Assembly: GCF_017875465.1 (NCBI RefSeq)
Contig: NZ_JAGGMQ010000001.1
Location: forward strand, 3,472,001-3,536,000
Direction of reading: 5' to 3'
Origin: Winslowiella toletana
GTDB taxonomy: Bacteria > Pseudomonadota > Gammaproteobacteria > Enterobacterales > Enterobacteriaceae
Length of the DNA stretch: 64,000 nt
The position numbers and the translations under genes were made by a program. A model generated the notes under the pieces. The model did not search any database. It saw nothing but the letters and a program-made list of their open reading frames with translations, and was not told the origin of the DNA. This document shows, in pieces, positions 12,052 to 54,366 of this stretch (position 1 is the first letter of the stretch; every line of letters begins with the position of its first letter).

Positions 12052-13404
12052 ATGGCCGCAAGCGATTTTTTCTTACAGCGTCAGCTTGATGCACTGATGG
12101 CTGACGCTGCGAATCAGGACTACCGACTGTGGGTAAAGACGGAGCATCATCCGGTAAAACGTCTTGAGCAATTAGCCCGCCATTATAACGGCCGTATCCG
12201 GCAGCGCGTGGTGCTACGCCTGGGTTATATGCATCAACCTTCATCACTGCCAGCGCTGATTGAGCGGGCCAATGACTGGGCTGCTCCGGTTCGTTCAGCC
12301 GCGCGCCAGAGCATTCGGCGATATATCACGCAGCAGGATGCCGGGCTACTGGTCGATTGTCTGCCCGATTTTTACCGGCTACTCAACGGTGAACGGGACG
12401 ATCATCAGCGGCTGGTAGATGAAGTAATCCAATTTTTATCTTTGCCGCAGCATCAGCAGAGGCTGCTGGATGGCGTCTGCGTTGCTCATAAAAACATTGC
12501 CCGGATTGCGACACAAGTGCTGATTGAACAACAGCTTTTCCCGCCGGGGAAGATTTTTCAGCAGGCCAGCCTGCAGCAGGATTGTATGGTCAGACTGATG
12601 GCTGCCAGAGCAGTTCTTAGCAGCTGCGCGGCCGTAACCACTGAAAGAATGCAGGAACTGCTCAGCGATAGTTACCCACCCATCAAACAGTTAGCGCTGC
12701 ATTACGTTATTAACCAGAAAACAGAGGTGTCGCTGCCGCTACTGCGTGTGTTACTGCTGGATCGCAACGAACTGGTACGCAAGCGTGCGGCCCGGCTGCT
12801 GAAAGCGGGTGGGTGGTCACCGACAGAACATTATCTGACGGTGTTTAATGATACTGGCCGCAAGGTGACTGAAAGGAGCGTGGCGCTGCTCGGTCTGGAT
12901 GAGCAAAAATATCTTCCGGTGGAGGCGCTGGCATTAAATAGTCTGAACAGCCAGCAGCCGGGGATGTACAGGGTGGCTTTGCGGGTAATTGTCAGGCATC
13001 AGCAACAGGAGGCGCGGGAAATATTACTTGAGGCAATCTCCTGCCCATCGTCAGCTATTGGGCGGATGGCTTGCCGGCAATTTATCAAACTTAAACTTTT
13101 TCTCCGGCCAGGCGAGCTTCAACAGGTGCTGGATACGCATCCCTGCGCCGATCGTCAACGGCTTTGTCTGGCTCTGACCAGCAGTTTAAACCTGTGGGAT
13201 AGTCTGATTTTCCTGCTCTACAATGCAGCGATTTTTGAGAAGTCATTAACGCAACAGGCGCTCAGCGGCTGGAAAGTCAGAGCGAACCGTGGTGGAACGC
13301 AGCCTGACGCAAGGCAAAAAAGAGAATTACTGGTTCTGCTTGATAGCTGTGGTGATGATTTATTCAAAGGTAAAGATTATCTGCAGCAGTTGTTATCGTC
13401 ATAG
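12052..13404 (+). CDS. HEAT-repeat protein of unknown function
   Basis: 450 residues made almost entirely of paired helices. Recurrent HEAT/armadillo-like units are visible (for example residues 43-75 with RIRQRVVLRLGYMHQ, 78-110 with DWAAPVRSAARQSIRRY, 150-190, and 235-260 with DRNELVRKRAARLLKAGG). No signal peptide, membrane segment or catalytic motif is apparent, so it is probably a cytosolic scaffold. It stands alone between the coiled-coil gene and a LysR gene, in the variable zone behind thrW. I do not recognise a named family. Confidence 0.7.
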   Translation: MAASDFFLQRQLDALMADAANQDYRLWVKTEHHPVKRLEQLARHYNGRIRQRVVLRLGYMHQPSSLPALIERANDWAAPVRSAARQSIRRYITQQDAGLLVDCLPDFYRLLNGERDDHQRLVDEVIQFLSLPQHQQRLLDGVCVAHKNIARIATQVLIEQQLFPPGKIFQQASLQQDCMVRLMAARAVLSSCAAVTTERMQELLSDSYPPIKQLALHYVINQKTEVSLPLLRVLLLDRNELVRKRAARLLKAGGWSPTEHYLTVFNDTGRKVTERSVALLGLDEQKYLPVEALALNSLNSQQPGMYRVALRVIVRHQQQEAREILLEAISCPSSAIGRMACRQFIKLKLFLRPGELQQVLDTHPCADRQRLCLALTSSLNLWDSLIFLLYNAAIFEKSLTQQALSGWKVRANRGGTQPDARQKRELLVLLDSCGDDLFKGKDYLQQLLSS

Positions 13405-13441
13405 TTAGCGGCGGGGCAATGCCCCATTCCGGTGCATCTCT

Positions 13442-14392
13442 TTAACCAATCCCCAGCGCATCCATAAACAGCGTGATCAGCTGATTGATCTTACGCCCTT
13501 TTTTAATTATCAGGCAGAAGGGCGTTTTAACCTGAAGTTCATCTGGCCCAATCGCGCGCATTTTTTTCTCCTGCACATAATGCTCAGCATAGTGCGCCGG
13601 AAGGTAGCCAATAAAATGTCCGGTAAGGATCAGCATCGCCACCGCCTCAACCTGCACAGCCTGAATTTTACTGCTGCTAAAGGCAAACAGCTTATTGTTA
13701 TGGCGATGCGTGACATAGGTGTGATTAATGATTTTTTGATTCTTTAATATTTCGAGGCTGATGCTGGTGTTTTCCTGTGAAAATAAGGGGTGCTGATTAC
13801 TGCAATATAAATGCGAGGTTTCGGTATAAATAGAATAATAATCAAATTCACTTTTTTTATCATATACCGGCGCAATGGCGCAATTAAACCGCTCCTCATT
13901 TAATCCCTTTTCTATATCATCAAGATGGGCGGTTTGCAGGCGGATGTTTACTTTTGGTGCAGCGTTATGTAGCTGTTGCACCGCTTTGGTTACCGGCGAT
14001 TGTGAGTCAGAAATCGTGTTGTCCACCACGCTGATATTCAGGTCGCCCAGCACCTCATTGCGGCTGTTGTGCAGGCGTTCACGAAAATTATTCAGAGAGG
14101 CGAACAGCTCCAGCGTGGCCTGATAAACCGTGACGCCATATTCGGTCAGCTCAAAGCCCTCACGCCCGCGGCTGCACAGAGTCATTCCCAGACGGATCTC
14201 CAAATCGGAAAGCTGTTTGCTGATCGCCGCCAGACCAATATTCAGTTCATGACTGGCCGAGGTCAGGCCGCCCGAATCTACCACGCATTTAAATACACGT
14301 AATAACTTCAGATCGACATTGTTAATGGACATTGATGAATTATCGCTGCGCGCATAATTCATGTTTCCTGTGTTGGAAACCTTACTTTCCAT
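13442..14392 (-). CDS. LysR-family regulator, likely of catabolic cluster A
   Basis: Transcription factor, up to 316 residues. The winged helix-turn-helix is near residues 28-85 (VDLKLLRVFKCVVDSGG, then SASHELNIGLAAISKQLSDLE) followed by LCSRGREGFELTEYG. An alternative start at 14359 sits directly behind AGGAAA and would remove 11 residues. The C-terminal half is the periplasmic-binding-like effector domain. It is divergent from the argH-like gene, the usual arrangement for a LysR regulator and its target. Its LCxRGxxGFxLTxxG block is shared with the LysR proteins at 23827 and 48218, marking one subfamily that recurs with ureohydrolase clusters in this window. Confidence 0.88.
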   Translation of the reverse strand: MESKVSNTGNMNYARSDNSSMSINNVDLKLLRVFKCVVDSGGLTSASHELNIGLAAISKQLSDLEIRLGMTLCSRGREGFELTEYGVTVYQATLELFASLNNFRERLHNSRNEVLGDLNISVVDNTISDSQSPVTKAVQQLHNAAPKVNIRLQTAHLDDIEKGLNEERFNCAIAPVYDKKSEFDYYSIYTETSHLYCSNQHPLFSQENTSISLEILKNQKIINHTYVTHRHNNKLFAFSSSKIQAVQVEAVAMLILTGHFIGYLPAHYAEHYVQEKKMRAIGPDELQVKTPFCLIIKKGRKINQLITLFMDALGIG

Positions 14393-14563
14393 AATAAATA
14401 TTCAACCCCGGAAGAAATACAGTGAAAGTAAGAGTGAACCTGAATTAGCCGCTAATTACCAGCTGGCAAATTAAAATAACTTTTAATTATCACTCGCACC
14501 CCGGTCAGAGGATTTCCTTATTTTATGACGACAGGGGTGAAACCGCGCAATGAGAGAGGAATT

Positions 14564-15991
14564 ATGTCTGACAGTGCCGATCGTTTATGGGGTGCCCGTT
14601 TTAAAACTCCGCCTGCTGCCGCCTTAACCGCGCTGTCGCGCAGCCCTGAGTACTATTTTGCTCTGGCTCCGTACGATCTGGCTGGCTGCCGGGCGCATGC
14701 TCACGAACTTCAGCGCGCTGGCCTGCTGAGCGAGGCGGAAACCAGCGAAATGATCGCTGCTATCGACCTGCTGGATGCTGACTATCGTGCCGGGAAAGTG
14801 GATCCGATTTATGCCGATGAAGACGTGCATACCTTTATCGAACGTGCGCTGACTGAACGCCTTGGCGCGCTGGGCGGCAAACTGCGTGCCGGACGTTCGC
14901 GCAACGATCAGACGGTGAACGATCTGCGCCTCTACCTGCGCGACAATGTACGCCGGATTACTACCGCTTTGCTGGCTCTGCAACAGGCGCTGGTCAGCCA
15001 GGCCGAACAGCATGCCAGCACCATTGCGCCGGGCTTTACTCATCTGCAGCAGGCGCAGCCGATTGTATTTGGCCATCAGTTAATGGCTCATGCGCAATCT
15101 TTCTCGCGCGATATTGAACGTATTCAGGACTGGGATAACCGCAGCGCTTTCTCACCGCTGGGCGCCGCCGCGATGGCCGGTTCCGCGATTGCCCGCCGTC
15201 CGGAGCTGGCGGCGCAGGAGCTGGGGTATCGCGCGCCGTGCGAGAACTCGATTGATGCTGTCGCCAGCCGCGATTATGTCGCCGAATTCCTGTTTATCAC
15301 CAGCATGATTGGCGTCAATCTGTCGCGCATCAGCGAGGAGATCTGTCTGTGGACCTCACGCCAGTTCCGCTGGGTTGAGATCAGCGACAGCTACGCCACT
15401 GGCAGTTCAATTATGCCGCAGAAGAAAAATCCGGATATCGCCGAGCTGACGCGTGGCCGCAGTGGCCGCCTGATCGGCAATCTGACGGCAATGCTCGCCA
15501 CCATGAAAGCGATGCCGCTCTCCTATAACCGCGATCTTAGTGAAGACAAACGCAGCGCCATCGATTCGGTGGACACGCTGCTGCTGGTACTGCCTGCGAT
15601 GGCTGGCATGATTGAAACCATGAAGGTTAATGAGGCGGAACTGCTGGCGCAGGCGCCGGAAGGTTTCACCCTGGCGACCGAAGTGGCCGACTGGCTGGCA
15701 ATGCGCGGCGTGCCGTTTAAAGAAGCCCATGAAATTACCGGCAAGCTGGTGCAGCTGTGTGAATTCCATGGTCATGGCCTCTCCGATCTGACCGATCAGC
15801 AGCTGGCGGAAGTGGATGCGCGCCTGACGCCTGAAGTGCGCACGGCGCTGACGCTGGAAGCCGCTATCCATTCACGCGACGGTTTCGGCGGCACCGCGCC
15901 AGCGCGCGTCAGTGAGCAGATTGAGCGTCTGAAAGGGCGTATTCAGCAGCAGGCCGAGTGGGTGAGTGCTTACAAGGGCCCTCGTCTGTAA
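14564..15991 (+). CDS. Argininosuccinate lyase-like C-N lyase (catabolic paralog)
   Basis: Fumarase/aspartase-superfamily enzyme cleaving an N-succinyl (dicarboxyethyl) group to fumarate. The ATG at 14564 behind GAGAGAGG gives 475 residues, slightly longer than E. coli ArgH (457). Active-site blocks are intact: SRND at 112-115, THLQQAQP from 159, and the mobile signature loop GSSIMPQKKNP at 280-290. Its place at the head of an ABC-importer/hydrolase operon with its own LysR, away from argCBGH genes, argues for a catabolic substrate rather than arginine synthesis; related lyases act on iminodisuccinate or ethylenediamine-disuccinate. The real substrate is unknown. Confidence 0.85.
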   Translation: MSDSADRLWGARFKTPPAAALTALSRSPEYYFALAPYDLAGCRAHAHELQRAGLLSEAETSEMIAAIDLLDADYRAGKVDPIYADEDVHTFIERALTERLGALGGKLRAGRSRNDQTVNDLRLYLRDNVRRITTALLALQQALVSQAEQHASTIAPGFTHLQQAQPIVFGHQLMAHAQSFSRDIERIQDWDNRSAFSPLGAAAMAGSAIARRPELAAQELGYRAPCENSIDAVASRDYVAEFLFITSMIGVNLSRISEEICLWTSRQFRWVEISDSYATGSSIMPQKKNPDIAELTRGRSGRLIGNLTAMLATMKAMPLSYNRDLSEDKRSAIDSVDTLLLVLPAMAGMIETMKVNEAELLAQAPEGFTLATEVADWLAMRGVPFKEAHEITGKLVQLCEFHGHGLSDLTDQQLAEVDARLTPEVRTALTLEAAIHSRDGFGGTAPARVSEQIERLKGRIQQQAEWVSAYKGPRL

Positions 15992-16019
15992 ACCCTTAGC
16001 ATTGAACCCCGGAGCCGCA

Positions 16020-16898
16020 ATGAACAGTTCGAAAAACGTTAACCTGGCGGGAAGCCGCGAGCAGCCCGAACAGAGTTACGACCTCAAACAGTATCAGGTG
16101 GTGCCGCGTCGTTATTACGGACGAATTACCGCCACGGTGGTGATTATTCTGCTGCTGGCCTCGCTGGTACATGCCTTTTCGCAGGGCAAAATCGAGTGGT
16201 CATTTGTCGGCCAGTTCTTTACCGCGCAGGCGATTCTCGATGGGGTGGTTAACACCCTGGTGATGTCGATTCTGGCGATGGCGCTGGGCATCCTGTTTGG
16301 CGTGGTGGCGGCGATTATGTATATGTCGCCGAACCCGGTGCTGCACTACATCTCTGTGGGCTATGCCTGGGTGTTTCGTGGCACGCCGCTGATCCTGCAA
16401 CTGCTGTTGTGGTTTAACCTGGCGCTGGTGTTTCCGGTGATCTCGATTCCCGGCGTATTCAGCATTGAAACCGTCAATGTAATGACGCCGTTTGTTGCGG
16501 CGCTGCTGGGACTGAGTATCAACCAGGGCGCCTATACCTCTGAGGTGGTGCGCGCCGGGCTGCTGTCGGTGGATACCGGCCAGTATGAAGCGGCGAAGTC
16601 GATCGGTATGCCGCGTCTGCAGGCGCTGCAACGCATCATTCTGCCGCAGGCGATGCGGGTGATTTTACCGCCGGTGGGCAATGAATTTATCAGCATGATT
16701 AAAACCACCAGTCTGGCGAGCATGATCCAGTACTCCGAGCTGCTCTACAACACGCAGAACATCTACTACGCCAATGCGCGCGTAATGGAGCTGCTGTTTG
16801 TAGCCGGTATCTGGTACCTGATTATCGTCACCGTGTTGTCGTTCGGGCAAAGCCGCCTTGAGCGCTACTTCTCTCGCGGCCAGCGCCGCCGTAACTAA
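16020..16898 (+). CDS. Polar amino-acid ABC transporter, permease
   Basis: HisM/GlnP-type inner-membrane permease, 292 residues from the ATG at 16020 (an in-frame start inside the previous gene is not used). A soluble N-terminus of about 35 residues precedes the first helix; the BPD_transp_1 domain spans roughly 70-285 with the ATPase-contact EAA loop EAAKSIGMPRLQALQRIILPQA. Only one permease gene is present, so it presumably acts as a homodimer. It starts 28 bp after the lyase gene and is followed by the ATPase with a 12-bp gap. Confidence 0.92.
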   Translation: MNSSKNVNLAGSREQPEQSYDLKQYQVVPRRYYGRITATVVIILLLASLVHAFSQGKIEWSFVGQFFTAQAILDGVVNTLVMSILAMALGILFGVVAAIMYMSPNPVLHYISVGYAWVFRGTPLILQLLLWFNLALVFPVISIPGVFSIETVNVMTPFVAALLGLSINQGAYTSEVVRAGLLSVDTGQYEAAKSIGMPRLQALQRIILPQAMRVILPPVGNEFISMIKTTSLASMIQYSELLYNTQNIYYANARVMELLFVAGIWYLIIVTVLSFGQSRLERYFSRGQRRRN

Positions 16899-16910
16899 GG
16901 AGATTACGCG

Positions 16911-17675
16911 ATGAGAAATATCGTCAGAGCGGTTGAGGTAAATAAGTATTTTGACCACTTTCATGCCCTGAAAGACGTCAGTCTGGAAGTTAACTACGGC
17001 GAGGTGATGTGCATTCTCGGTCCGTCCGGCTCCGGTAAAAGCACTTTCCTGCGCTGTATTAATCAGCTGGAAAAGATCGATCAGGGCGGAATCTGGATTG
17101 ATAACGAACTGGCGGGCTATCGCATTGCCGGTAACAAACTGCATTCGCTGAGTGACAAGCAGATTGCCCGTCAGCGTCTGCAAACTGGCATGGTATTCCA
17201 GCGTTTTAACCTGTTTCCGCATAAAACCGCGCTGGAAAACGTGATTGAAGGGCCGATGCACGTCCTGCTGCGTCCCAGACGTGAAGCCACCGAAGAAGGG
17301 ATGGCGCTGCTGGATCGCGTCGGGCTGGCGAATAAAGCCCACGCTTATCCGCAGGCGTTGTCCGGTGGTCAGCAGCAGCGCGTAGCGATTGCCCGCGCGC
17401 TGGCAATGAAACCCAAGCTGATGCTGTTTGATGAGCCAACGTCGGCGCTCGACCCGGAAATGGTCGGCGAGGTGCTGGCCGTTATGCGTACGCTGGCGAA
17501 AGAAGGAACCACCATGGTTGTGGTAACCCATGAAATGGGCTTTGCCCGGGAAGTGGCGAATCAGGTGGTGTTCATGGATGAAGGTCGCATTATCGAGCGC
17601 GGCGCGCCCGAAGACATTTTGCTGAATCCGCAAAATCCGCGGATGCAGAACTTTATCTCCGCCATTCTTCTTTAA
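16911..17675 (+). CDS. Polar amino-acid ABC transporter, ATPase
   Basis: 254-residue cytosolic ATPase of the PAAT family (GlnQ/HisP type). Walker [10 protein letters not shown] near residue 38, Q-loop at FQRFNLF, signature LSGGQQQR near residue 150, Walker [16 protein letters not shown]-loop VVTHEMGF. Forms the importer with the neighbouring permease and binding protein and is cotranscribed with them. Confidence 0.95.
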
Positions 17676-17696
17676 ACCCTAACCAGGAACATCCAG

Positions 17697-18518
17697 ATGA
17701 AAAAGATTGTGCTTTCTGCCGTTGCCGCCGCTCTGCTGCTGCAATCCACCGCCTGGGCCGCTGAACTGCCAGCGGCGATTAAATCTAAAGGGGAACTGAC
17801 GGTGGCGATTATGCCGAACTACCCGCCGATGGAGTTTAAGGATCCGGCCACCAATACCCTGACTGGCGTTGATGTCGATCTCGGTAACGCCATTGGCGAG
17901 AAGCTGGGCGTCAAAATCAAATGGCAGGAGATCGCCTTTGAACAGATGGTGAATGCTGTGGCGACGAAGCGCGTGGATATGGTGATGTCCGGTATGACCG
18001 ATACTGCTGAGCGGCAGAAAGTGGTCAGCTTTATCGACTATTTCCAGACCGGCCCGCAGTTCTACACCCTGGCGGCACGCAAAGATATCAACACTGCGGC
18101 CGATTTGTGCGGTAAAAAAGTCGGCACCAGCCGTCGTACCACCTTCCCGCAGGAAATTGCCAAATGGAGCGCGGCTAACTGCGAAGCCAAAGGCAAACCG
18201 GCGATTATTGTGGTCGGCGCCGAAGGTACTGCCGATGCGCGCACCCAGCTGCGTCAGCGCCGTCTGGATGGCGCGGTGCAGGGCAGCGAAACCCTGCCTT
18301 ATGTGATGGATCTGGAGAAAAACACCTATAAACCCCTGGATCAGTCGATTGCCTTCCAGCTTACCGGTATGGCGATTGATAAAAATGATCCGGCGCTGAT
18401 TGCCGCAGTACAGGGTGCGGTCAATGATCTGATCGCCGACGGTAGCTACGTCAAAATCCTCAGCAAATGGGGTCTGGCGGATAACGCGATTAAAACCGCG
18501 ACCGTTAACGGGAAATAA
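17697..18518 (+). CDS. Polar amino-acid ABC transporter, periplasmic binding protein
   Basis: 273 residues with a signal peptide (cleavage after STAWA near residue 21) and the SBP_bac_3 fold: LTVAIMPNYPPMEFKDP, GVDVDLGNAIGEKLG, MSGMTDTAERQKVVSFIDYF. These resemble binding proteins for amino acids and related carboxylates. It supplies ligand specificity for the 16020-17675 importer. The ligand cannot be read from the sequence; the adjacent lyase suggests an N-succinyl or guanidino-type amino acid. Confidence 0.92.
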   Translation: MKKIVLSAVAAALLLQSTAWAAELPAAIKSKGELTVAIMPNYPPMEFKDPATNTLTGVDVDLGNAIGEKLGVKIKWQEIAFEQMVNAVATKRVDMVMSGMTDTAERQKVVSFIDYFQTGPQFYTLAARKDINTAADLCGKKVGTSRRTTFPQEIAKWSAANCEAKGKPAIIVVGAEGTADARTQLRQRRLDGAVQGSETLPYVMDLEKNTYKPLDQSIAFQLTGMAIDKNDPALIAAVQGAVNDLIADGSYVKILSKWGLADNAIKTATVNGK

Positions 18519-18520
18519 CC

Positions 18521-19369
18521 ATGACTGTACCTGACGTCCGCCCGCGCTGGCCGCAAGGCAAGCAGGGCTGTATGGCGCTGGCGTTTGATCTCGACGGGCC
18601 AACCGGCGACGCGATGCTTAACGGCAGCATCTGGCAAATACCGGAGTATTTCACCTTCGGTGGTTACGGTCCGTTTCGTGCGCTGGGCAGAATCCTCGAT
18701 CTGCTGGAGCAGTATCAGGTGCCCGCCACCTTCTTTATTCCGGCGTGGGTGGTTGAGCAGTGGCCGCAGCAGTGCGCCGCAATTGTCGAAAAAGGGCATG
18801 AGGTGGCTTATCACGGCTATCGCCATGAGTCCTTTTACGCGCTAAACGGCGATCAGCAGCGTCAGGTAATGGAGACATCGCGCGAGATTTTCTGGCAGCG
18901 CCTCGGCATTCGTGCCGAGGGTTTTCGCACGCCATCAGGCGACTGGCATCAGGAAACACCTGGTGTATTGCTGGATGCGGGCGTGATCTACTCCAGCAGC
19001 ATGCGCGGTGACGATCGGCCTTATGCCATCAGCGTGCCGGGCTATACGCAGCCGCTGGTAGAGATCCCCGGCAAATGGGAAATGGATGATTACGCCTCGC
19101 TGGCTTACACCCGCGAGCCGGACTTTCCGAAAGGGCTGGATCGCACCGCCAGCTATGCCCTGACGCTGGATAACTGGTGTCGTGAATTTGATGGTGCGAT
19201 GGATGAAGGTCTGTGTCTGACGACGCTTTTCCATCCCAAAATCAGCGGTAAGCCGGGACGAATTCTGCTGCTGGAGCAGTTTATTGCCCATATGCGTCAG
19301 CGCGACGTCTGGTTTGCCCGCTGCCGTGATGTCGCCCACTGGTATCTGCAGGAGCAGCAGCATGACTGA
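18521..19369 (+). CDS. Cytosolic polysaccharide-deacetylase-fold hydrolase 1
   Basis: 282 residues, carbohydrate esterase 4/NodB-like fold, no signal peptide, so unlikely to act on cell-wall glycans. The catalytic Asp motif is FDLDGP (near residue 24), the metal motif HxxxH is present as HGYRH (near 105), and RTPSGDW matches motif 3. Cytosolic members of this fold include PuuE allantoinase and cyclic-imide hydrolase, which open amide rings; a similar C-N hydrolysis is inferred here. It begins 2 bp after the binding-protein stop and overlaps the next, paralogous gene. Confidence 0.83.
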   Translation: MTVPDVRPRWPQGKQGCMALAFDLDGPTGDAMLNGSIWQIPEYFTFGGYGPFRALGRILDLLEQYQVPATFFIPAWVVEQWPQQCAAIVEKGHEVAYHGYRHESFYALNGDQQRQVMETSREIFWQRLGIRAEGFRTPSGDWHQETPGVLLDAGVIYSSSMRGDDRPYAISVPGYTQPLVEIPGKWEMDDYASLAYTREPDFPKGLDRTASYALTLDNWCREFDGAMDEGLCLTTLFHPKISGKPGRILLLEQFIAHMRQRDVWFARCRDVAHWYLQEQQHD

Positions 19370-20243
19370 AGCAACACGCTGGCCACAGGGGCAGCAATCG
19401 GCGGTGGTGCTGACCATCGACTTTAACGATATTCACGGCATTCTGACGCAAACCCCGGCGGTGGCCGGACGCGATAAAACTTTATCGGTCTGGCGTTACG
19501 GCACGCTGCGCGGTGTTGATCGGCTGCTGAAATTGCTGGCGGAAAAAAATGTGCGCGCCAGCTGGCTGGTGCCAGCGATTGTCGCGACTGAAAATCCTGC
19601 GGTGTTCGCCCGTATTGTCGCCGCCGGGCATGAGATTGCCTGCAGCGGCGATCGCCACCAGAATTTTGATACGCTGACGCTGGAACAGCAAATCGCCTGC
19701 GTCAGGCAGGGTTGCGACCAGCTGGCAGCCGCTGGCGGCGCGCGGCCGGTAGGATTTCGCACGCCAGCCGGACAGTGGAAACCGGGGCTGGCGGCAGCGC
19801 TGAGTGAGGCCGGTATCCGCTGGTCATCCAGCTGGCGCGGCGACGATTTACCCTACTTCCATCCGGCGACACGGCTGGTTGAACTGCCGATGCATTATGA
19901 GCTGGAGGACGAGCCTTATTTCGCCTTTAACCTCAGTCCGGCGGTGCCGCCGGGCCAGTCACGTATCGCCTCTTATCAGCAGACGTTAGAAAATATGAAG
20001 CTGGATTTTCGCGGCTTCCACCGTTTTGGTCTCTGCTATGTACTGCGTCTGCATCCGGAAATTATCGGCACTGCCGGGCGCATCGGTCTGCTGGGTGAAT
20101 TGCTGGACTTTATCGCCGGACACCAGCAGGTGTGGATGGCCAGCGCTGCTGAGGTCGCCGACTGGTGGCAAACCCAGCCTGATAATCTGCCCGAACATCC
20201 GGCAGAGATCTTCCAGCGACAGATTATGGAGCAAAACGCATGA
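19362..20243 (+). CDS. Cytosolic polysaccharide-deacetylase-fold hydrolase 2 (degenerate metal motif)
   Basis: 293 residues from the ATG at 19362, which overlaps the previous stop by 8 bp. Paralogous to the upstream gene (WPQGQQSAVVLTIDF, GFRTPAGQWKPGL, SSSWRGDDLPYF), but the HxxxH motif reads SGDRH, so the first histidine ligand is replaced by Ser, and the Asp motif is IDFND. It could be an altered-specificity enzyme or a non-catalytic partner of hydrolase 1. The stop overlaps the next ATG (ATGA), indicating translational coupling. Confidence 0.8.
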   Translation: MTEATRWPQGQQSAVVLTIDFNDIHGILTQTPAVAGRDKTLSVWRYGTLRGVDRLLKLLAEKNVRASWLVPAIVATENPAVFARIVAAGHEIACSGDRHQNFDTLTLEQQIACVRQGCDQLAAAGGARPVGFRTPAGQWKPGLAAALSEAGIRWSSSWRGDDLPYFHPATRLVELPMHYELEDEPYFAFNLSPAVPPGQSRIASYQQTLENMKLDFRGFHRFGLCYVLRLHPEIIGTAGRIGLLGELLDFIAGHQQVWMASAAEVADWWQTQPDNLPEHPAEIFQRQIMEQNA

Positions 20244-21595
20244 GCCAGTTAATGGACGATCTGGCGGCTTTTGTCGCCAGCACCGGTTATAACGATTTGC
20301 CACCAGAGCTGGTGGAGCGCGCCAAACGTCATATTCTCGATACCTTTGGCGCCACCCTGGCGGGCAGTAATAGTCCGATCGCGCAGGCGGTGCAGCAAAC
20401 GGTTATCGCCGAAGGCTGTACGCCGCTGGCCAGCGTCTGGGGATGTGGCTGGCAAACCTCACCGCGCAATGCCGCCTGGCTAAACGGTGTGGCGGCGCAT
20501 ATGTATGAACTGGACGATACCGGTGGCTGCGATCACTCTGGCGCGGTGGTTTTGCCGGCGGTAATGGCGCTGATACCACAGTGTGCGGCGCCGGTTTCTG
20601 GTCAGGCGCTGATTACTGCGGTGGTGCTGGGCTATGACGTGGGCCGCCGGGTGCTGGAAGCCTGTGGTGGCTATGCGCCGCATAATGAAGCGGGCTGGCA
20701 CTCCACTGCTACCTGTGGCGTATTTGGCGCCGCCGCCGCCGCCGCCTCTTTACTTCAGTTAAATCAGAACCAAACCGCGCAGGCATTGGGGATTGCCGCC
20801 AGCTTCAGCAGCGGGTTATGGGGCTTTATCCATGATGGTTCGCAGAGTAAGAAGTTGCATGCCGGACGTGCGGCGGAAGGGGGCGTGTTAGCTGCACTGC
20901 TGGCGGCCAAAGGCATCACCGGCCCTGGCCAGACCTTTGACGATGTCTGGGGTGGTTTTCTGCAAACCTTTGCCCCAGCCAGCCGCCAGCCAGCCGCATT
21001 AACGGCGGAACTGGGGCAGGTATGGAAGCTCAATCGTTGCTCGATTAAGCCCTATGCTTCCTGTCGCGGCACCCATTCGGCGATTGATGCCGTTGGTCTG
21101 CTGATGGCTGAACACAACTGTGGCGCTGAACAGATCGCGCGTATTAATGTGTACCTTAATCCGTTCCTGCTGGATATGTGTGGCAATAGCGATCTGCAAA
21201 GCCTGGCGGCGGCGCAGATGAGTCTGCCCTATGCGCTGGCGGCGCGAGTGCTGTTTGGCCATGCCGGACTGGATGCCTATGACAGCGATAAACGCGCCAG
21301 CAGTGAGGTTGCCGCCATGCTGACGCGCATTGAACTGCATATTGATACGCAGCAGGGCAGCAGCGATGAGCCGGTGGTTGAACTGGAGACGCTGACGGGC
21401 GAACGCTGGCGCCAGCATATTGCCGTGCCGCTGGGTGCGCCGACCAATCCGTTAAGCGATACCGCACTGCTGGATAAGTTTACCCAGCTGGCGCAGCGGG
21501 TGCTTACGCCGCAACAAACCAGTGCGTTGCAGGACTACTGCCTGACGCTGGAGCAGCAGGCGGATGTTAGTGAGTTGCTGGCGTTACTGAAGTAA
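20240..21595 (+). CDS. MmgE/PrpD-family protein
   Basis: 451-residue member of the MmgE/PrpD fold, which contains 2-methylcitrate dehydratase, cis-aconitate decarboxylase and iminodisuccinate epimerase. Conserved features: the N-terminal HILDTFGATLAGS, DDTGGCDHSGAVVLPAVMAL near residue 90 and the KLHAGRAAEGG segment near 210. No propionate genes are nearby, so PrpD activity is unlikely. Association with an ArgH-like lyase parallels the iminodisuccinate pathway, in which an epimerase of this fold supplies the stereoisomer cleaved by the lyase. Last gene of the + strand operon; a 9-bp-stem hairpin follows. Confidence 0.85.
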   Translation: MSQLMDDLAAFVASTGYNDLPPELVERAKRHILDTFGATLAGSNSPIAQAVQQTVIAEGCTPLASVWGCGWQTSPRNAAWLNGVAAHMYELDDTGGCDHSGAVVLPAVMALIPQCAAPVSGQALITAVVLGYDVGRRVLEACGGYAPHNEAGWHSTATCGVFGAAAAAASLLQLNQNQTAQALGIAASFSSGLWGFIHDGSQSKKLHAGRAAEGGVLAALLAAKGITGPGQTFDDVWGGFLQTFAPASRQPAALTAELGQVWKLNRCSIKPYASCRGTHSAIDAVGLLMAEHNCGAEQIARINVYLNPFLLDMCGNSDLQSLAAAQMSLPYALAARVLFGHAGLDAYDSDKRASSEVAAMLTRIELHIDTQQGSSDEPVVELETLTGERWRQHIAVPLGAPTNPLSDTALLDKFTQLAQRVLTPQQTSALQDYCLTLEQQADVSELLALLK

Positions 21596-21601
21596 GGATT
21601 A

Positions 21602-21623
21602 GCCCATATCGCGGGATATGGGC
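21602..21623. terminator. Hairpin between convergent cluster A arms
   Basis: Perfect 9-bp stem GCCCATATC (21602-21610) / GATATGGGC (21615-21623), loop GCGG, located between the convergent MmgE/PrpD and dehydrogenase genes. No long T run, but position favours a bidirectional terminator. Confidence 0.65.
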
Positions 21624-21629
21624 ATTCTG

Positions 21630-22718
21630 TCAGAAGTGACTACCTGCCAGCGCTTCCACCCGCGCCATGGCCTGATACAGCGCCGCTTCGCTAACTGGCT
21701 CGGCCATATTTTTCATATCTGACGTTGCCACCGACTCATGCACAATCACCGCCATCTCTTCCGCCGTGAGGTCGGCAATCGCCGCCAGCGTTAGCGGGAT
21801 AGCGCACTGATGCGCCAGCATCATTTCGCGCAACAGCTCTTCATCGCTACGGTTTTCCAGCGCCAGCAGGCACAGATTGCCGTAGCCGACCAGCAGGCCA
21901 TGGCCATACTCGCGGGTTTTATCACAGAAGGTAAAGCCTTCATAAATCGCATGTGACGCCGCCATATGCGCGCCGTTGCTCATTAGCGAAGTCATACCAG
22001 CAAAAGTGAAAATCGCATCCAGCGCCTGATCGAGATGCTGATCCGGCTGCCCGTTACGCACTGCGGCGCAGGCTTTCGGGCCATGTTCGGCTATCACTTC
22101 ATAGCAGATCAGGCTGTGCGCCAGTGATGATTTCTCATTAGCGCCTGCGGGTGGATGGCGCTGACTGACGGCGCGGAATTCATACCATTTCGCCAGCGTG
22201 TCGCCAAGACCTGCGGCCAGCCAGCGCACCGGCGCCTGAGCCAGCAGCTGGCTATCGATAATTACTGCCGCTGGCGCCTGGGGAAGGGGGAAAATATCGT
22301 AGAAATTACCCTCGTCATCATAACGAATGCTCAGCGGCGTGACGGCGGCGCAGGTGGCGGCGATCGTAGGAATGGTGACCAGCGGGAGATTATGTTCCGC
22401 ACCCACCGCTTTACAGGTATCCAGCGATTTACCGCCGCCAGTGGCGATAATCATATCGGCGTTCAGCGCCTTCGCCCGTTCACCAAGACGGGCGATCTGC
22501 CGCAGCGAGGTTTCACCGCCAAACCATTCGCTGCCGACTAACTCCACTTGTGCGTCAGCAAGCTGCGCACGCACCAGCGGTTCGACGGCCTGCAACGCCT
22601 GGTGACCGCCGATCAGCAGCGCGCGCTGCCCCAGCTCACGACAGATACCACCTAACTGCTGTATAACGCCTGCACCGCGCAGCACGCGCGCAGGGAAAAC
22701 CAGATTTTGTTCAGACAT
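21630..22718 (-). CDS. Iron-containing (GldA/HcxA-like) dehydrogenase
   Basis: 362-residue group III metal-dependent alcohol dehydrogenase related to glycerol dehydrogenase GldA and hydroxycarboxylate dehydrogenase HcxA. NAD-binding ATGGGKSLDTCKAV near residues 91-104 and TIPTIAATCAAVTPLS are typical, and the metal ligands are expected in GLGDTLAKWYE (Asp), HMAASHAIYEGF (His) and YGHGLLVGYG (His), all visible. Substrate probably a 2-oxo or 2-hydroxy acid produced by the pathway; not determinable. It is 12 bp downstream of the ureohydrolase start gene on the same strand and likely cotranscribed with it. Confidence 0.85.
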   Translation of the reverse strand: MSEQNLVFPARVLRGAGVIQQLGGICRELGQRALLIGGHQALQAVEPLVRAQLADAQVELVGSEWFGGETSLRQIARLGERAKALNADMIIATGGGKSLDTCKAVGAEHNLPLVTIPTIAATCAAVTPLSIRYDDEGNFYDIFPLPQAPAAVIIDSQLLAQAPVRWLAAGLGDTLAKWYEFRAVSQRHPPAGANEKSSLAHSLICYEVIAEHGPKACAAVRNGQPDQHLDQALDAIFTFAGMTSLMSNGAHMAASHAIYEGFTFCDKTREYGHGLLVGYGNLCLLALENRSDEELLREMMLAHQCAIPLTLAAIADLTAEEMAVIVHESVATSDMKNMAEPVSEAALYQAMARVEALAGSHF

Positions 22719-22730
22719 GCCTGACCTTAT

Positions 22731-23693
22731 TTAGTTGTAATTTACGCCGGGTAATACACAGAGCATTTCATAAAGAATATTGGCGGCCAGCTGCGAGGTG
22801 GTGCCGCTGATATCGTAAGGCGGAGACACTTCGACCAGGTCTGCGCCAATCAGATTCAGGCCACGACAACCACGCACGATCTCCAGCCCCTGAATCGAGG
22901 TCAGACCGCCCACTTCCGGCGTGCCGGTGCCGGGCGCCCAGGCGGGATCAAAGCTGTCGATATCATACGAGAGATAGACCGGGCCGCTGCCCATCTGCGC
23001 ACGCACCTGTTCCATTAATGGCGTCATCGACTGATACCAGCATTTTTCCGCAGGCACCAGGCGGAAGCCCTGATCGACACCCCACTGAAAGTCGCCGGCA
23101 TCGTAGCCCTGCGCACGTTGACCAATCTGCACTACCCGCTGCAGATCAAGCAGACCTTCTTCTACCGCGCGACGAAAGGTGGTGCCATGGGCAATTTTTT
23201 CACCGAACATTTCATCATTGGTATCGGTATGCGCATCAACATGGATCAAACCAACCGGGCCATGCTTTTTCACCAGCGCACGCAGGATCGGTAGCGTCAG
23301 GGTGTGATCGCCACCCAGTGTCAGCGGCACTAACGGAAAAGCATTCAGTTCGCTGTAATAGTCTTCAATGATCTGCACCGATTTATGCAGATTATAGGTG
23401 TTGATCGGCACATCACCGAGATCCGCCACACGCAGCGAATCGAAAGGCGCAGCGCCTGTTGCCATATTGTACGGGCGAATCATCACTGAATCGGCGCGGA
23501 TCGCTCGCGGCCCGTAGCGGGTGCCGGCACGCTGAGATGCGCCAATATCGAGCGGAATGCCGATAAACGCCGCATCCAGCCCATCGGGGCGTTCAGCGGC
23601 GGGCAGACGCATCATGGTGCCGCGTCCGGCAAAACGGGGCATATCGTTGCCGCTCTGCGGCTGTGGAAAGTCGTTATCGCTGTTCGGGTGCAT
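22731..23693 (-). CDS. Ureohydrolase (agmatinase/guanidino-acid hydrolase family), cluster A
   Basis: 320 residues from the ATG at 23693, which lies 9 nt after GGAGG. Binuclear manganese enzyme removing urea from a guanidino compound. Ligand motifs are complete: GGDHT near residue 144, HVDAHTDT near 166 and DIDSFDP near 250, followed by WAPGTGTPEVGGL. The last block resembles guanidinobutyrase and guanidinopropionase more than classical SpeB, so a guanidino-carboxylate is the likely type of substrate. Divergent from a LysR gene at 23827. Confidence 0.85.
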   Translation of the reverse strand: MHPNSDNDFPQPQSGNDMPRFAGRGTMMRLPAAERPDGLDAAFIGIPLDIGASQRAGTRYGPRAIRADSVMIRPYNMATGAAPFDSLRVADLGDVPINTYNLHKSVQIIEDYYSELNAFPLVPLTLGGDHTLTLPILRALVKKHGPVGLIHVDAHTDTNDEMFGEKIAHGTTFRRAVEEGLLDLQRVVQIGQRAQGYDAGDFQWGVDQGFRLVPAEKCWYQSMTPLMEQVRAQMGSGPVYLSYDIDSFDPAWAPGTGTPEVGGLTSIQGLEIVRGCRGLNLIGADLVEVSPPYDISGTTSQLAANILYEMLCVLPGVNYN

Positions 23694-23826
23694 CAGGTGT
23701 GGCCTCCGGAAGGTGAAAAGGGCATCAGCCATCATCTGCCGGATAAGCTTGAGAAAAAATCATTGAGAGTAAATAATCAGTTCAGAGATTACTTAACTAA
23801 TTAGCCGCCAGGCCGAGGGAGAGTCC

Positions 23827-24726
23827 GTGAGCGTCAACCGCCTGCCAAACCTGAAGTTGCTGACTATTTTTGCCACCGTGGCGCGCTGCCAGGGTTACTC
23901 GCGCGCGCAGCAGGAGCTGAACATGACTACTCCGGCGATCAGCGGTTATATGAGCGAGCTGGAGCAGCGGCTGGGATTTGTACTGTGCCAGCGTGGTCGC
24001 GGCGGCTTTTCGCTGACCCCTCGCGGCGAACAGTTTTTGCAGTACAGCCTGCAATTACTCGGTACGCTGGCGGACTTTGATCGTCAGGTGGAAGGGCTGA
24101 AAAGCGAGCAGGGCGGCGTGTTCTCGCTGGGGGTGGTCGATTCCCTGTCGACTGACCGGCGGCTGGGACTGGCGGAGAGCATCAACCAGTTTAGTGAGCG
24201 CTTCCCGGCGGTGTATCTTAACCTCTCAGTGCGCGATCCCAATGAATTGCAGCAGCAGGTGCTGGATAACCGGCTCGATCTGGCTATCGGCCATTTTCCG
24301 GTCAATGTGAATAATCTGGTGACGCTGCCGCTGCATCACGAGCAACACTGGCTCTACTGTAGCGACAGCCATCAGCTGTTTAACCGCGCTGAACAGGATA
24401 CTGGTGATTTGCATAGCTACGGTTTTGTCACCCGCAGTTACTGGAATCAGGCCGAGCTGGCGCGCCGCGGCTTTAAAGCCAGCGCCGCCTCGGTCGAGAG
24501 CATTGAAGCGCAGCTGATTCTGATCCTGTCAGGCAAATATATCGGCTATCTGCCTGAGCATTGCGCGCAACCCTGGGTGGAGCAGGGCCAGCTAAAACGC
24601 CTGTTACCGCAACAGTTTAGCTATCAGGCGCCGTTCTCACTGATTTTCCGCCGTGGACGCAGCCGGGAAACGCTAATCAGGGCGTTCCGCGACCTGGTAA
24701 AAGTGCGGGTGGCGGTGGGATTGTAG
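23827..24726 (+). CDS. LysR-family regulator, divergent from cluster A ureohydrolase
   Basis: 299 residues with an inferred GTG start (23827). N-terminal HTH LPNLKLLTIFATVARCQGYSRA, then SGYMSELEQRLGFVLCQRG and GFSLTPRG; C-terminal effector domain. Same subfamily as the LysR proteins at 13442 and 48218. The 133-bp gap to the ureohydrolase gene should contain the shared operator. It probably controls the ureohydrolase-dehydrogenase arm. Confidence 0.88.
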   Translation: MSVNRLPNLKLLTIFATVARCQGYSRAQQELNMTTPAISGYMSELEQRLGFVLCQRGRGGFSLTPRGEQFLQYSLQLLGTLADFDRQVEGLKSEQGGVFSLGVVDSLSTDRRLGLAESINQFSERFPAVYLNLSVRDPNELQQQVLDNRLDLAIGHFPVNVNNLVTLPLHHEQHWLYCSDSHQLFNRAEQDTGDLHSYGFVTRSYWNQAELARRGFKASAASVESIEAQLILILSGKYIGYLPEHCAQPWVEQGQLKRLLPQQFSYQAPFSLIFRRGRSRETLIRAFRDLVKVRVAVGL

Positions 24727-24844
24727 TGCCTGTGTTATTCACCATCAGCTTGTTTGCTGTGCAACACAAGAGGATTTGACATTTGTTCGTCTTGAAACGC
24801 GAGGCCGCATGATCAAACCTGTGGCGCTTTTTACGGAGAAAAAA

Positions 24845-25156
24845 ATGAGTTGCCCATACTGTCAGGATCTTTGCGTTAAATACATTATCCGTACACCGGC
24901 GGATCTGCGTAAGGCGATCCGTATTGCCGCTCAGGCGGTCAGCGAGGGGATAATCTCTGAAGCTGAATCGCAATCGCAGTGGAATCAGTATAGTTTCAAA
25001 CAGTGTGCCGAAGGTATGACATGGGGGGATATTGTGGATTACCATTTTTTATGTAACCGCTGCCAGACTCAGTTTGTTTTAGGTGCCGAAACATACCATG
25101 GCAGTGGTGGCTGTTGGTCGCCAGAAACGGAAAAGCCCACGGCAATTATTGATTAA
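24845..25156 (+). CDS. Small zinc-ribbon protein, unknown function
   Basis: 103 residues from the ATG at 24845, 8 nt after CGGAG; a longer frame upstream has no ribosome site. CPYC at residues 3-6 and CNRC near residue 73 form two CxxC pairs, the pattern of a zinc ribbon. In between is a helical segment (LRKAIRIAAQAVSEG). The C-terminal half contains FVLGAETYHGSGGCW. No operon partner and no assigned family. Confidence 0.65.
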   Translation: MSCPYCQDLCVKYIIRTPADLRKAIRIAAQAVSEGIISEAESQSQWNQYSFKQCAEGMTWGDIVDYHFLCNRCQTQFVLGAETYHGSGGCWSPETEKPTAIID

Positions 25157-25488
25157 CTTTATGATATTTTTGGTTTTTTTGAAAAGCGTATTACCATCAT
25201 CAGCCATCATGACAAATCAGCTAAAATAGTCACTTTCCTCCATATATTAATAGCAGTTTAATCCATGAATTTGCCGGTTTAATGAATCTTTTATTTTGTT
25301 TATTTAATATCAAGAACTTATTTTAAGATCGCCCTGCAGAAAAACAACCGCAAAATGCAATGTCCATCACACAATGCTATGTCATAGCTATTATGTCCAT
25401 GTCTTCAGATGTTCATGCCGTAGCGTGAAAACGCTGCTCCTGTAACGTAACACCTGATGAATTATTTTATTTCTCAGGAGTTGTCACA
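25157..25488. other. Intergenic region upstream of araE
   Basis: 332 bp, AT-rich in its first half. It holds an AraC-type half-site at 25385-25401, a second TCCAT 33 bp upstream at 25363-25367, and a small AGCGT-GAAA-ACGCT inverted repeat near 25422-25435. No small gene was found. Confidence 0.6.
25385..25401 (+). promoter_or_regulatory. Putative AraC-binding half-site upstream of araE
   Basis: TAGCTATTATGTCCATG agrees with the recalled E. coli araI1 half-site (TAGCATTTTTATCCATA) at 12 of 17 positions, including both the TAGC and TCCAT boxes. It lies about 88 bp before the araE start. AraC-dependent activation by arabinose is inferred. The adjacent I2-like half-site is not convincing. Confidence 0.55.
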
Positions 25489-26898
25489 ATGTCATACGTA
25501 AGTGATGGTGTGGGGATCATTGCGAAAAATACCCGGCGCATGAATCTGTTTGTCTCCGTTTCTGCGGCAGTGGCGGGATTATTATTTGGCCTCGATATCG
25601 GCGTTATCTCCGGTGCACTCCCTTTTATAACTGAGCATTTTACCCTCAGTAGTCGCCAGCAGGAGTGGGTGGTCAGCACCATGATGCTCGGTGCGGCGCT
25701 TGGCGCACTGTTAAACGGCTGGCTGTCATCACAGCTGGGGCGTAAATACAGTCTGATGGCGGGAGCGGTGCTGTTTATTGTCGGTTCCCTCGGCTCGGCT
25801 CTGGCAGAGAACGTTGAAATATTGATGGCGGCGCGGGTGGTGCTCGGCGTCGCGGTGGGCATTGCATCCTATACGGCACCGCTTTATCTCTCTGAAATGG
25901 CAACCGAAAATGTTCGCGGTAAGATGATTAGTATGTATCAGCTGATGGTAACGCTGGGTATTCTGATGGCTTTTTTATCCGATACCGCTTTTAGTTACAG
26001 CGGCAACTGGCGCGGTATGCTGGGCGTTCTGGCGCTGCCAGCAGTGGTACTGATGATTCTGGTGTTCTTTCTGCCCAACAGCCCGCGCTGGCTGGCGGCA
26101 AAAGGGCGTCATATTGAGGCGGAAGAGGTGCTGCGCATGTTGCGAGATACCTCCGAAAAAGCCCGCAATGAACTCAACGAGATCCGAGAAAGCCTCAAGG
26201 TGAAGCAGGGCGGCTGGGGGTTATTTAAGGTTAACCGGAATGTCCGGCGTGCGGTATTTCTTGGTATGTTATTGCAGGCGGTTCAGCAGTTTACCGGCAT
26301 GAATATTATTATGTATTACGCGCCGCAGATATTTAAAATGGCCGGATTTACCAGCACTGAACAGCAGATGATCGCCACCATTGTGGTCGGCCTGACGTTT
26401 ATGCTGGCGACATTTATCGCGGTATTTACCGTGGATAAAGTGGGGCGCAAACCCGCGCTAAAAGTGGGTTTCAGTGTGATGGCGCTGGGCACGCTGATAT
26501 TGGGGTTCTGTTTTATGTCGCTGAGTATCGGGCATGCATCACCCGGTCTTTCCTGGCTTTCGGTTGGCATGGCAATGATGTGTATTGCTGGCTACGCCAT
26601 GAGCGCCGCGCCAGTGGTGTGGATTTTATGTTCAGAAATTCAGCCGCTGAAAGCACGTGATTTTGGTATCACCTGTTCCACCACCACCAACTGGGTGTCC
26701 AATATGATTATTGGCGCCACCTTCCTGACGTTGATTGATACCTTCGGCGCTGCCGCCACTTTCTGGTTTTATGCCGCACTGAATATCAGTTTCGTATTTA
26801 TTACTTTCGCCCTGGTCCCGGAAACGAAAAATGTCACTCTGGAGCAGATTGAGAAGAAACTCATGTCGGGGGTTAAATTGCGCGATATTGGCTTATAA
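25489..26898 (+). CDS. araE: Arabinose:H+ symporter
   Basis: Low-affinity L-arabinose/proton symporter of the sugar-porter MFS family, 12 membrane helices, 469 residues. Similarity to E. coli AraE is nearly continuous: [90 protein letters not shown] and [17 protein letters not shown]. The [10 protein letters not shown] and GRKPALK loops are the family signatures. No other ara genes are adjacent, which is normal for araE. A long hairpin at 26904-26939 terminates it. Confidence 0.93.
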
Positions 26899-48217: not shown

Positions 48218-49099
48218 TTAGCTCTGGCGCCGGTGGCTGGAGAGCAGCAGCTTCAGCATCGTTTCAGCGGCGGGAGAGAGCGGACGTGAGCCGTGGGTGA
48301 CCGCATAATGTTTTACTTCCCAGCGCGGCGTGCCGGGCACTTCCTGCAACGGCAGCACCGGACGTAACAGATCGGCATAGTGGGTCGGCAAAATGCCGAC
48401 ATACTGGCCGGTGGCAATCAGCATTGCTACCGCTTCAATGCCGTTGGCTTCCGGGCCACGACGGTAGCCCATCCGGCTGATACTCTCTTCAACAAACGCC
48501 TGCTGATGACGGAATACCACCGGCCGTTTTTCACCGGTGACTTCACTGCCAATAAAATAGAGCTGATGGCTTTCGCTATACAATTCAATATAACGTAAAG
48601 ATATGACCTTCTGATGTTCCATGATGCCTTTTAGCGCTATATCCAGTTTGCGATCAAGCAGCGCCTGAATAAGCTGTGGCGCGGTAAGTGTATGCAGCGA
48701 TAAATTTACCAGCGGCGCAGTATGATGTAATTCCTTTAATGCCAGATGTAAAAAACCACCGGGATTGCCAATGATATTATCAGAAAATCCTATGGATAGA
48801 TCGCCGGAAATAATTTCGCGGCTGGCATCAATCGCCGGAAATATACGGTCAAGGGCATCCAGCGCTTCCTGGGCATAAACCAGTGCGGCTTTACCGGCCT
48901 CGGTAAGCTCAAAGCCCTGCGGCCCACGGCTGCAAAGCCTGGCGCCGAGCGTATCTTCTACCGATTTAATCTGCCGGCTAATGGTGGTTTTAGTCATATT
49001 CAGTTTATTTTCTGCTGCGGAAAAACCACCCGCCTGCGCCGCCACGCAAAATATACGTAACGCCCTTAAATCACGTTCATTCAGCACTCTATTTTTCAT
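48218..49099 (-). CDS. LysR-family regulator of catabolic cluster B
   Basis: 293 residues from the ATG at 49099, 8 nt after AGGAAA; a longer frame extends 42 codons into the promoter of the divergent gene and is not favoured. HTH DLRALRIFCVAAQAGGFSAAENKLNMTKTTISRQIKSVE followed by LCSRGPQGFELTEAG. Same LysR subfamily as those at 13442 and 23827. The 106-bp gap to the ureohydrolase at 49206 should carry the operator. Confidence 0.9.
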   Translation of the reverse strand: MKNRVLNERDLRALRIFCVAAQAGGFSAAENKLNMTKTTISRQIKSVEDTLGARLCSRGPQGFELTEAGKAALVYAQEALDALDRIFPAIDASREIISGDLSIGFSDNIIGNPGGFLHLALKELHHTAPLVNLSLHTLTAPQLIQALLDRKLDIALKGIMEHQKVISLRYIELYSESHQLYFIGSEVTGEKRPVVFRHQQAFVEESISRMGYRRGPEANGIEAVAMLIATGQYVGILPTHYADLLRPVLPLQEVPGTPRWEVKHYAVTHGSRPLSPAAETMLKLLLSSHRRQS

Positions 49100-49205
49100 G
49101 GTTGTTTTTCCTGCAACGATGATTGCATAAAAAGTCTGTTTTCCGGCTGCGTAACCATTAATACAATCACCAGTAACATCTTTTGCCACATCAGGGAAAT
49201 AGTCC

Positions 49206-50171: not shown

Positions 50172-50189
50172 TTAACCTGGAAGATGCTG

Positions 50190-50930: not shown

Positions 50931-50942
50931 AGGAGCATAAAT

Positions 50943-52360: not shown

Positions 52361-52373
52361 CAGAGAGAATCAG

Positions 52374-53318: not shown

Positions 53319-53366
53319 CGGTCAGAAACAGCGGTGCGGCGTCTCTTCAGGGAAACGGGAATAACA

Positions 53367-54218: not shown

Positions 54219-54366
54219 TTTGTGAGGCGGGCGGCGTTTTCACCACCCGTAGTAATGACTTCCATCAATCCGAAACTGGCGCTGATATTTGCCCGAAAGC
54301 GCCAAAAAAGACTACGATTTCAGACTGGCCGTAAAAATCAGCGGATTAAAACTACAGGGAGTCGTA

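Follow-up and report, generated by a model that had tools for sequence, protein, structure and literature searches.

A co-inherited operon of Winslowiella toletana and other Proteobacteria that may degrade a succinate conjugate of arginine with an ArgH-derived lyase and a CE4 protein pair

The window analysed here is a stretch of 64,000 nucleotides from the 5.30 Mb genome of Winslowiella toletana, and it carries a seven-gene operon (14564-21595) encoding, in order, a lyase of the argininosuccinate lyase (ArgH) family, the permease, ATPase and binding protein of an ATP-binding cassette (ABC) importer, two proteins of the CE4 fold (CE4a and CE4b) and an MmgE/PrpD-fold protein. We put at roughly 40% the probability that the substrate of this operon is a succinate (1,2-dicarboxyethyl) conjugate of arginine, ring-closed or epimeric, which would be imported and converted to fumarate and arginine or a close guanidino amine. 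Variants of this substrate would be an opine-like conjugate linked through Nalpha or an analogue with 4-guanidinobutyrate. An initial annotation of this DNA had proposed cleavage of an imported N-(dicarboxyethyl) compound, perhaps with a guanidino part. Its interpretation is partly supported: every gene that it named lies where it had been read and belongs to the family described, and a guanidino part agrees with the arginine-catabolism neighbours found in some lineages.

The genes from the lyase to the MmgE/PrpD protein form a real operon. Neighbouring genes overlap or nearly abut, the pattern expected with coupled translation, and the set is more than a chance grouping because its core is co-inherited. 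CE4a defines a tight subfamily (63% mean column identity over 22 aligned sequences picked from 120 listed, Enterobacterales to Streptomyces), and a scan of a species-level genome collection with this alignment returned 288 relatives, the best 80 of which were taken with their flanks; plasmid records and further genome stretches were added to these. The 99 loci counted leave out L094, L095, plasmid hits H2 and H6 and the short loci L097-L106, and 86 of the 99 have 5 kb on either side of CE4a. The survey, seeded by CE4a similarity, is non-random: most loci belong to Pseudomonas or to relatives of Erwinia and Pantoea, some sequences are near-duplicates, and L061 and L166 are probably one contig counted twice within the 86.

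The permease, ATPase, binding protein, CE4a and CE4b are each present in 86/86 loci, the lyase in 85/86 and a full MmgE/PrpD gene in 73/86. The exception for the lyase is a plasmid of Paracoccus seriniphilus, for which the count covers the plasmid alone and not the chromosome. Co-inheritance of the core in related genomes, on which the initial annotation had staked its interpretation, is thus borne out by the 86-locus count. The gene set spans Gamma-, Beta- and Alphaproteobacteria, and its order is common to the best 80 loci, barring cuts at contig ends and the 13 loci in which MmgE/PrpD is missing or truncated. Rhizobium, Ensifer and Ochrobactrum have the lyase placed after MmgE/PrpD. The set is uncommon. 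CE4a was found in 7 of 398 evenly drawn Pseudomonadota genomes, this one included (E 1e-60), in 6 of 119 genomes of the family of Prodigiosinella (E 1e-90) and in 1 of 247 of the family of G051 (E 1e-90), which was G051 itself. Two plasmid loci with distant CE4a relatives, L094 from Nocardia (37% identity) and L095 from Natronosalvus (35%), showed no such cluster.

The lyase has Lyase_1 and ASL_C2 domains and reaches 528.9 bits against TIGR00838, the argininosuccinate lyase model, almost twofold the cut-off of 279.5; argininosuccinate lyase is also the source name, where one is shown, in the 120 closest protein clusters listed for it (at least 70% identity). Against solved enzymes it scores 496 bits with the nearest, Mycobacterium tuberculosis argininosuccinate lyase (6iem), and 193 bits with ethylenediaminedisuccinate (EDDS) lyase (6g3d). 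Orthology to EDDS lyase or iminodisuccinate lyase was rejected on low scores, and the protein has no particular likeness to EDDS lyase. The family score, the retention of K331, Y323 and all compared catalytic residues, and the arginine-catabolism neighbours of some lineages would suit a second argininosuccinate lyase in an operon that scavenges ordinary argininosuccinate as an arginine source. We consider this unlikely, although it is the alternative that survives best. TIGR00838 was searched in 23 genomes, comprising 22 cluster carriers and one genome without a CE4a match (G166, which has a single ArgH). All 22 carriers hold at least two ArgHs (one has three), and in each of them another ArgH scores higher than the cluster lyase, a paralogue that coexists with a housekeeping ArgH. 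For plain argininosuccinate, moreover, CE4 proteins and an epimerase would be superfluous.

Residues of these enzymes were compared in duck delta-2 numbering over 112 rows (23 housekeeping, 85 from gamma- and betaproteobacterial clusters and 4 from alphaproteobacterial clusters), some of which repeat one gene. Catalytic and fumarate-half residues are invariant across all rows, so that the cluster lyase shares with ArgH every compared residue of that side. It differs at two positions that are reported in the delta-crystallin literature to contact the arginine half. The 23 housekeeping enzymes all have Asp at position 33, where the 77 distinct gamma- and betaproteobacterial cluster lyases have Tyr (73) or Phe (4); position 328 is Gln in 23/23, and in the 77 it is Ser (64), Ile (7), Ala (4), Gly (1) or Val (1). 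Neither residue is retained in any cluster lyase of this set (0/77), and both occur in the enzymes of known structure from mycobacteria, Thermus, duck and human. These changes argue against plain argininosuccinate as the best substrate, in line with the initial annotation, and suggest that the amine end is presented otherwise than in ordinary argininosuccinate. The alphaproteobacterial lyases keep D33 and Q328 and are changed at S29, Y323 and D330 (4/4). In a midpoint-rooted maximum-likelihood tree of 43 rows, for which the programme issued a long-branch warning, the 16 gamma- and betaproteobacterial cluster lyases used form one group (100/100), and the four alphaproteobacterial ones form their own (100/100), which falls among housekeeping ArgHs from Pseudomonas and other genomes (99/96). 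Since the two sets group apart, the tree suggests two separate recruitments of an ArgH-derived lyase, with another ArgH paralogue in the alphaproteobacterial clusters.

The importer, of HEQR type, combines a permease, an ATPase and an SBP_bac_3 binding protein. The pocket positions of the latter were assigned by analogy with HisJ and LAO, in which an Arg holds the ligand carboxylate and an Asp the alpha-ammonium group. The Arg (R106) is kept in 90/90 distinct binding proteins; the Asp of lysine/arginine/ornithine-type proteins is replaced by Gly (G196) in 90/90. Gly alone is not unique, since it also occurs once among 12 reference binding proteins, the best 12 of 29 found in this genome (8 Asp, 2 Asn, 1 Met, 1 Gly). 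R146 and E198 are additional residues found in 90/90 cluster proteins and 0/12 references. Taken together, the kept Arg, the Asp-to-Gly change and the added R146 and E198 make it probable that the ligand is no plain free alpha-amino acid and has further groups, both carboxylate and cationic. A Paraburkholderia plasmid (L089) has the ABC genes of the operon twice, one set with CE4a, CE4b and MmgE/PrpD and another with the lyase; L087 and L163 have an extra binding-protein gene after MmgE/PrpD.

CE4a and CE4b are both Polysacc_deac_1 proteins with PuuE as best NCBIfam match, far under its cut-off (TIGR03212; 72.7 and 77.6 bits, respectively, against 424.6). CE4a shares its full-length fold with the small-molecule branch of CE4, being nearest to 3rxz, the allantoinase PuuE and HP0310, the last two of which it resembles much more closely than it does polysaccharide deacetylases, and it has the Asp-His-His metal triad in common with HP0310 (D25/H98/H102, in 93/93 distinct sequences). 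It differs from the PuuE branch as a separate subfamily (73 bits, cut-off 425) paired with a paralogue that lacks the triad. That paralogue, CE4b, is 36% identical to CE4a and has the triad in 0/94 distinct sequences. The initial annotation had read both proteins as deacetylase-fold hydrolases; the fold holds for both and the metal site for CE4a alone. CE4b is probably not an independent metal enzyme and, judging from its sequence, is probably a non-metal partner subunit of CE4a. Strict pairing of a metal-competent with a metal-incompetent CE4 protein makes this a testable candidate for a pseudoenzyme complex.

Within its family the MmgE/PrpD protein sides with cis-aconitate decarboxylase and iminodisuccinate epimerase, away from 2-methylcitrate dehydratase, a placement consistent with the epimerase initially proposed. 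Identity as the 2-methylcitrate dehydratase PrpD was rejected by score (27.7 and 21.2 bits against NCBIfam cut-offs of 950 and 575) and by fold comparison. The protein scores 129 bits against iminodisuccinate epimerase, H99 and Y145 are present in 79/79 distinct sequences, and its closest named relatives belong to Erwiniaceae bacterium BAC15a-03b and Pantoea. All 13 loci that lack a full gene are Pseudomonas and keep the rest of the operon (L024, L028, L036-L038, L041, L042, L049, L060, L069, L076, L079 and L083; truncated in L060).

The gene set, its conservation, its residue patterns and its neighbours are direct observations, from which the following steps are inferred. The importer would take up a ligand with more than one carboxylate, without the usual recognition of a free alpha-amino group. 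CE4a, a predicted metal amidohydrolase of the PuuE/HP0310 branch, would open a cyclic amide or hydroimidazolone ring, probably together with CE4b; such a step fits because argininosuccinate spontaneously forms cyclic anhydrides and rings. The MmgE/PrpD protein would invert the succinyl stereocentre in the manner of iminodisuccinate epimerase, and the ArgH-derived lyase would eliminate fumarate by C-N cleavage. The amine would then enter arginine catabolism, by lineage through the arginine succinyltransferase (AST) pathway, arginase/ornithine cyclodeaminase or guanidinobutyrase. The proposed logic resembles iminodisuccinate degradation in Agrobacterium BY6, where an epimerase acts with a stereoselective C-N lyase: here too an MmgE/PrpD epimerase candidate lies beside a fumarase-superfamily lyase. 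It differs in the dedicated ABC importer and the CE4a/CE4b pair, in the ArgH origin of the lyase and in the distance of the epimerase. Hydantoin utilisation, with its racemase, cyclic amidohydrolase and N-carbamoylase, offers a parallel logic of epimerisation, ring opening and N-C cleavage, but its enzymes are of unrelated families and the last step here would be an elimination giving fumarate.

Most loci lack arginine-catabolism genes at the flanks of the operon, though some members of several lineages have them. In Prodigiosinella, astC, astA, astD, astB and astE follow 100 bp after the operon on the same strand, and ast genes adjoin it likewise in G470. In Paracoccus, arginase and ornithine cyclodeaminase genes lie next to it on the other strand. 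Of the 52 Pseudomonas loci that extend 9.9 kb downstream, 14 encode AstA, CtlX or ornithine cyclodeaminase, in most cases at a distance of 3.6-4.7 kb from CE4a. The window and 13/86 loci have a guanidinobutyrase-like ureohydrolase gene as operon neighbour. The window protein scores 510 bits against guanidinobutyrase (3nio), 320 against 3-guanidinopropionase and 217 against proclavaminate amidinohydrolase, and its gene lies divergent to a LysR gene. Unlike the core it is optional: at 13/86 loci (Erwinia, Pantoea or Enterobacter records and one further stretch) it is therefore not core. The GldA-like dehydrogenase gene occurs in 21/86 stretches and adjoins the core without a ureohydrolase gene in L013, L014, L016, L035 and L078. 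Both genes, initially counted as cluster members, are accessories outside the core.

These neighbours bear on a second alternative, which we also regard as unlikely and place just behind the second argininosuccinate lyase, namely that the amine is smaller and the arginine genes incidental: a cyclic ureide or imide such as 5-carboxymethylhydantoin, or guanidinosuccinate, would yield fumarate and urea or guanidine. PuuE opens a hydantoin ring, the Tyr in place of D33 could fill the arginine pocket, and the distant CE4a relatives of Nocardia and Natronosalvus stand beside amidase, urea-carboxylase-associated and hydantoinase genes. Against this, arginine-catabolism genes adjoin the operon in unrelated lineages, and no urease, urea carboxylase or guanidine gene is annotated beside the core in three annotated records, the other loci not having been searched. 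In Burkholderia stagnalis a distance of some 19 kb separates a urea carboxylase gene from the lyase gene.

Slightly less likely is a pathway of different order and chemistry, in which the CE4 pair would deacylate an N-acylated conjugate of arginine, with a dehydratase or decarboxylase role for the MmgE/PrpD protein. CE4 enzymes are classically de-N-acetylases, and the MmgE/PrpD fold comparison fails to separate decarboxylase from epimerase. The solved metal-binding relative HP0310 was inactive on allantoin, but also on the N-acetyl substrates tested (PMC3084791), so that it speaks on both sides; the distance of the CE4a fold from polysaccharide deacetylases, much greater than from PuuE or HP0310, speaks against N-deacylation. 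Breakdown of free iminodisuccinate, of EDDS or of another aminopolycarboxylate, whether natural or synthetic, is very improbable given the scores of 129 bits against iminodisuccinate epimerase and 193 against EDDS lyase, compared with 496 against argininosuccinate lyase, two CE4 proteins left without an obvious role, and a spread over three classes unlike that of a recent xenobiotic pathway; nothing was found that points to the synthetic substrate initially allowed for.

Several points weigh against the arginine-succinate conjugate itself. The arginine-half role of D33 and Q328 is presumed from the delta-crystallin literature, the alphaproteobacterial lyases differ at S29, Y323 and D330 instead, and therefore pockets differ between lineages, and the lyase tree is subject to its long-branch warning. 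The MmgE/PrpD protein is at least as near cis-aconitate decarboxylase as the epimerase in sequence and fold, and its absence or truncation in 13/86 loci makes it dispensable. Arginine neighbours are absent from 38/52 Pseudomonas loci, from 4/6 CE4a-bearing genomes of the family of Prodigiosinella and, guanidinobutyrase-like gene aside, from most Enterobacterales, and the 14 Pseudomonas cases may share one ancestral site. Instead of opening rings, the CE4 proteins could remove N-acyl groups, and the inactivity of HP0310 on allantoin weighs against ring opening, with its inactivity on N-acetyl substrates as counterweight (PMC3084791).

If the arginine-succinate conjugate is nonetheless the substrate, the operon would represent a seemingly undescribed catabolic route and, by implication, a natural compound, a hitherto unrecognised reservoir of arginine turned into fumarate and arginine. 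That one pathway for opine-like or ring-closed conjugates unites an epimerase, an active and a dead CE4 amidohydrolase and a twice-recruited ArgH-derived lyase is a doubtful proposition. A limited literature search aimed at this gene combination found no description of it. Many genes labelled argininosuccinate lyase would then probably encode another enzyme, since both the TIGR00838 equivalog and the names of listed relatives call the window lyase ArgH. In Pseudomonas fluorescens FW300-N2E3 (L048) the operon is found on NZ_CP012830.1 at about 5,642,700-5,651,300, with astA and ctlX close by. Transposon-fitness data, including those for ctlX, are published for this strain (PMC9007349), which opens the question to a direct test.

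The whole cluster spans 13442-24726, with a divergent LysR gene, the operon, a hairpin, the convergent accessory genes and a second LysR gene (Table 1). The lyase start at 14564 is favoured over a longer frame from 14525 because most listed relatives are 475 aa long. A LysR1-type match occurs in 75/86 loci and LysR2 in 14/86; both proteins are LysR-type, and the earlier assignment of the two to one subfamily is weak at their level of identity. The region 21590-21640 folds at -20.3 kcal/mol (z -5.0; 0/200 shuffles equally stable). No Rfam family matched at gathering score within 13000-25500, and an RNA element at the locus was set aside on this ground.

Table 1. Features of the cluster in window coordinates.
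Feature	Position	Strand	Basis or remark
LysR1, divergent operon regulator	13442..14392	-	LysR_substrate and HTH_1; upstream of and divergent to lyase in survey rows
ArgH-like C-N lyase, 475 aa from ATG 14564	14564..15991	+	TIGR00838, 528.9 bits
Amino-acid ABC permease, single	15966..16898	+	BPD_transp_1, TIGR01726
Amino-acid ABC ATPase	16911..17675	+	GlnQ/TcyN models, 310 bits, under their cut-offs
Periplasmic binding protein, unusual pocket	17697..18518	+	SBP_bac_3
CE4a, HP0310/PuuE-like amidohydrolase	18521..19369	+	Complete Asp-His-His metal triad
CE4b, CE4a paralogue, metal triad lost	19362..20243	+	Likely start ~19362; open frame from 19284
MmgE/PrpD-fold protein, predicted epimerase	20240..21595	+	MmgE_PrpD_N/C domains
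Hairpin between convergent operon and accessory genes	21602..21623	.	Terminator-like, without clear T run after
GldA-like dehydrogenase, accessory	21630..22718	-	Fe-ADH; glycerol dehydrogenase subfamily 260 bits, cut-off 336
Guanidinobutyrase-like ureohydrolase, accessory	22731..23693	-	Arginase family; likely start 23693, open frame to 23735
LysR2, divergent from ureohydrolase	23827..24726	+	Translation judged LysR-type; 29.7% identity to LysR1

All 52 Pseudomonas loci with 9.9 kb downstream (L015-L085) also have a major facilitator superfamily (MFS) gene at about 13.1-14.4 kb, directly downstream of the operon in four loci read out; its best model is the efflux transporter YdeE (230 bits, under the cut-off). 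A second cluster of guanidino type occupies 48218-55686 of the window, with a LysR gene, an ABC importer, an MFS gene, a D-amino-acid-transaminase-like gene and two agmatinase-family paralogues (49206-50171, 161 bits, and 52374-53318, 138 bits; TIGR01230 cut-off 174). The binding protein of its importer also has Gly at the usual Asp position, and a pair of ureohydrolase paralogues within a single operon is reminiscent of metformin hydrolase.

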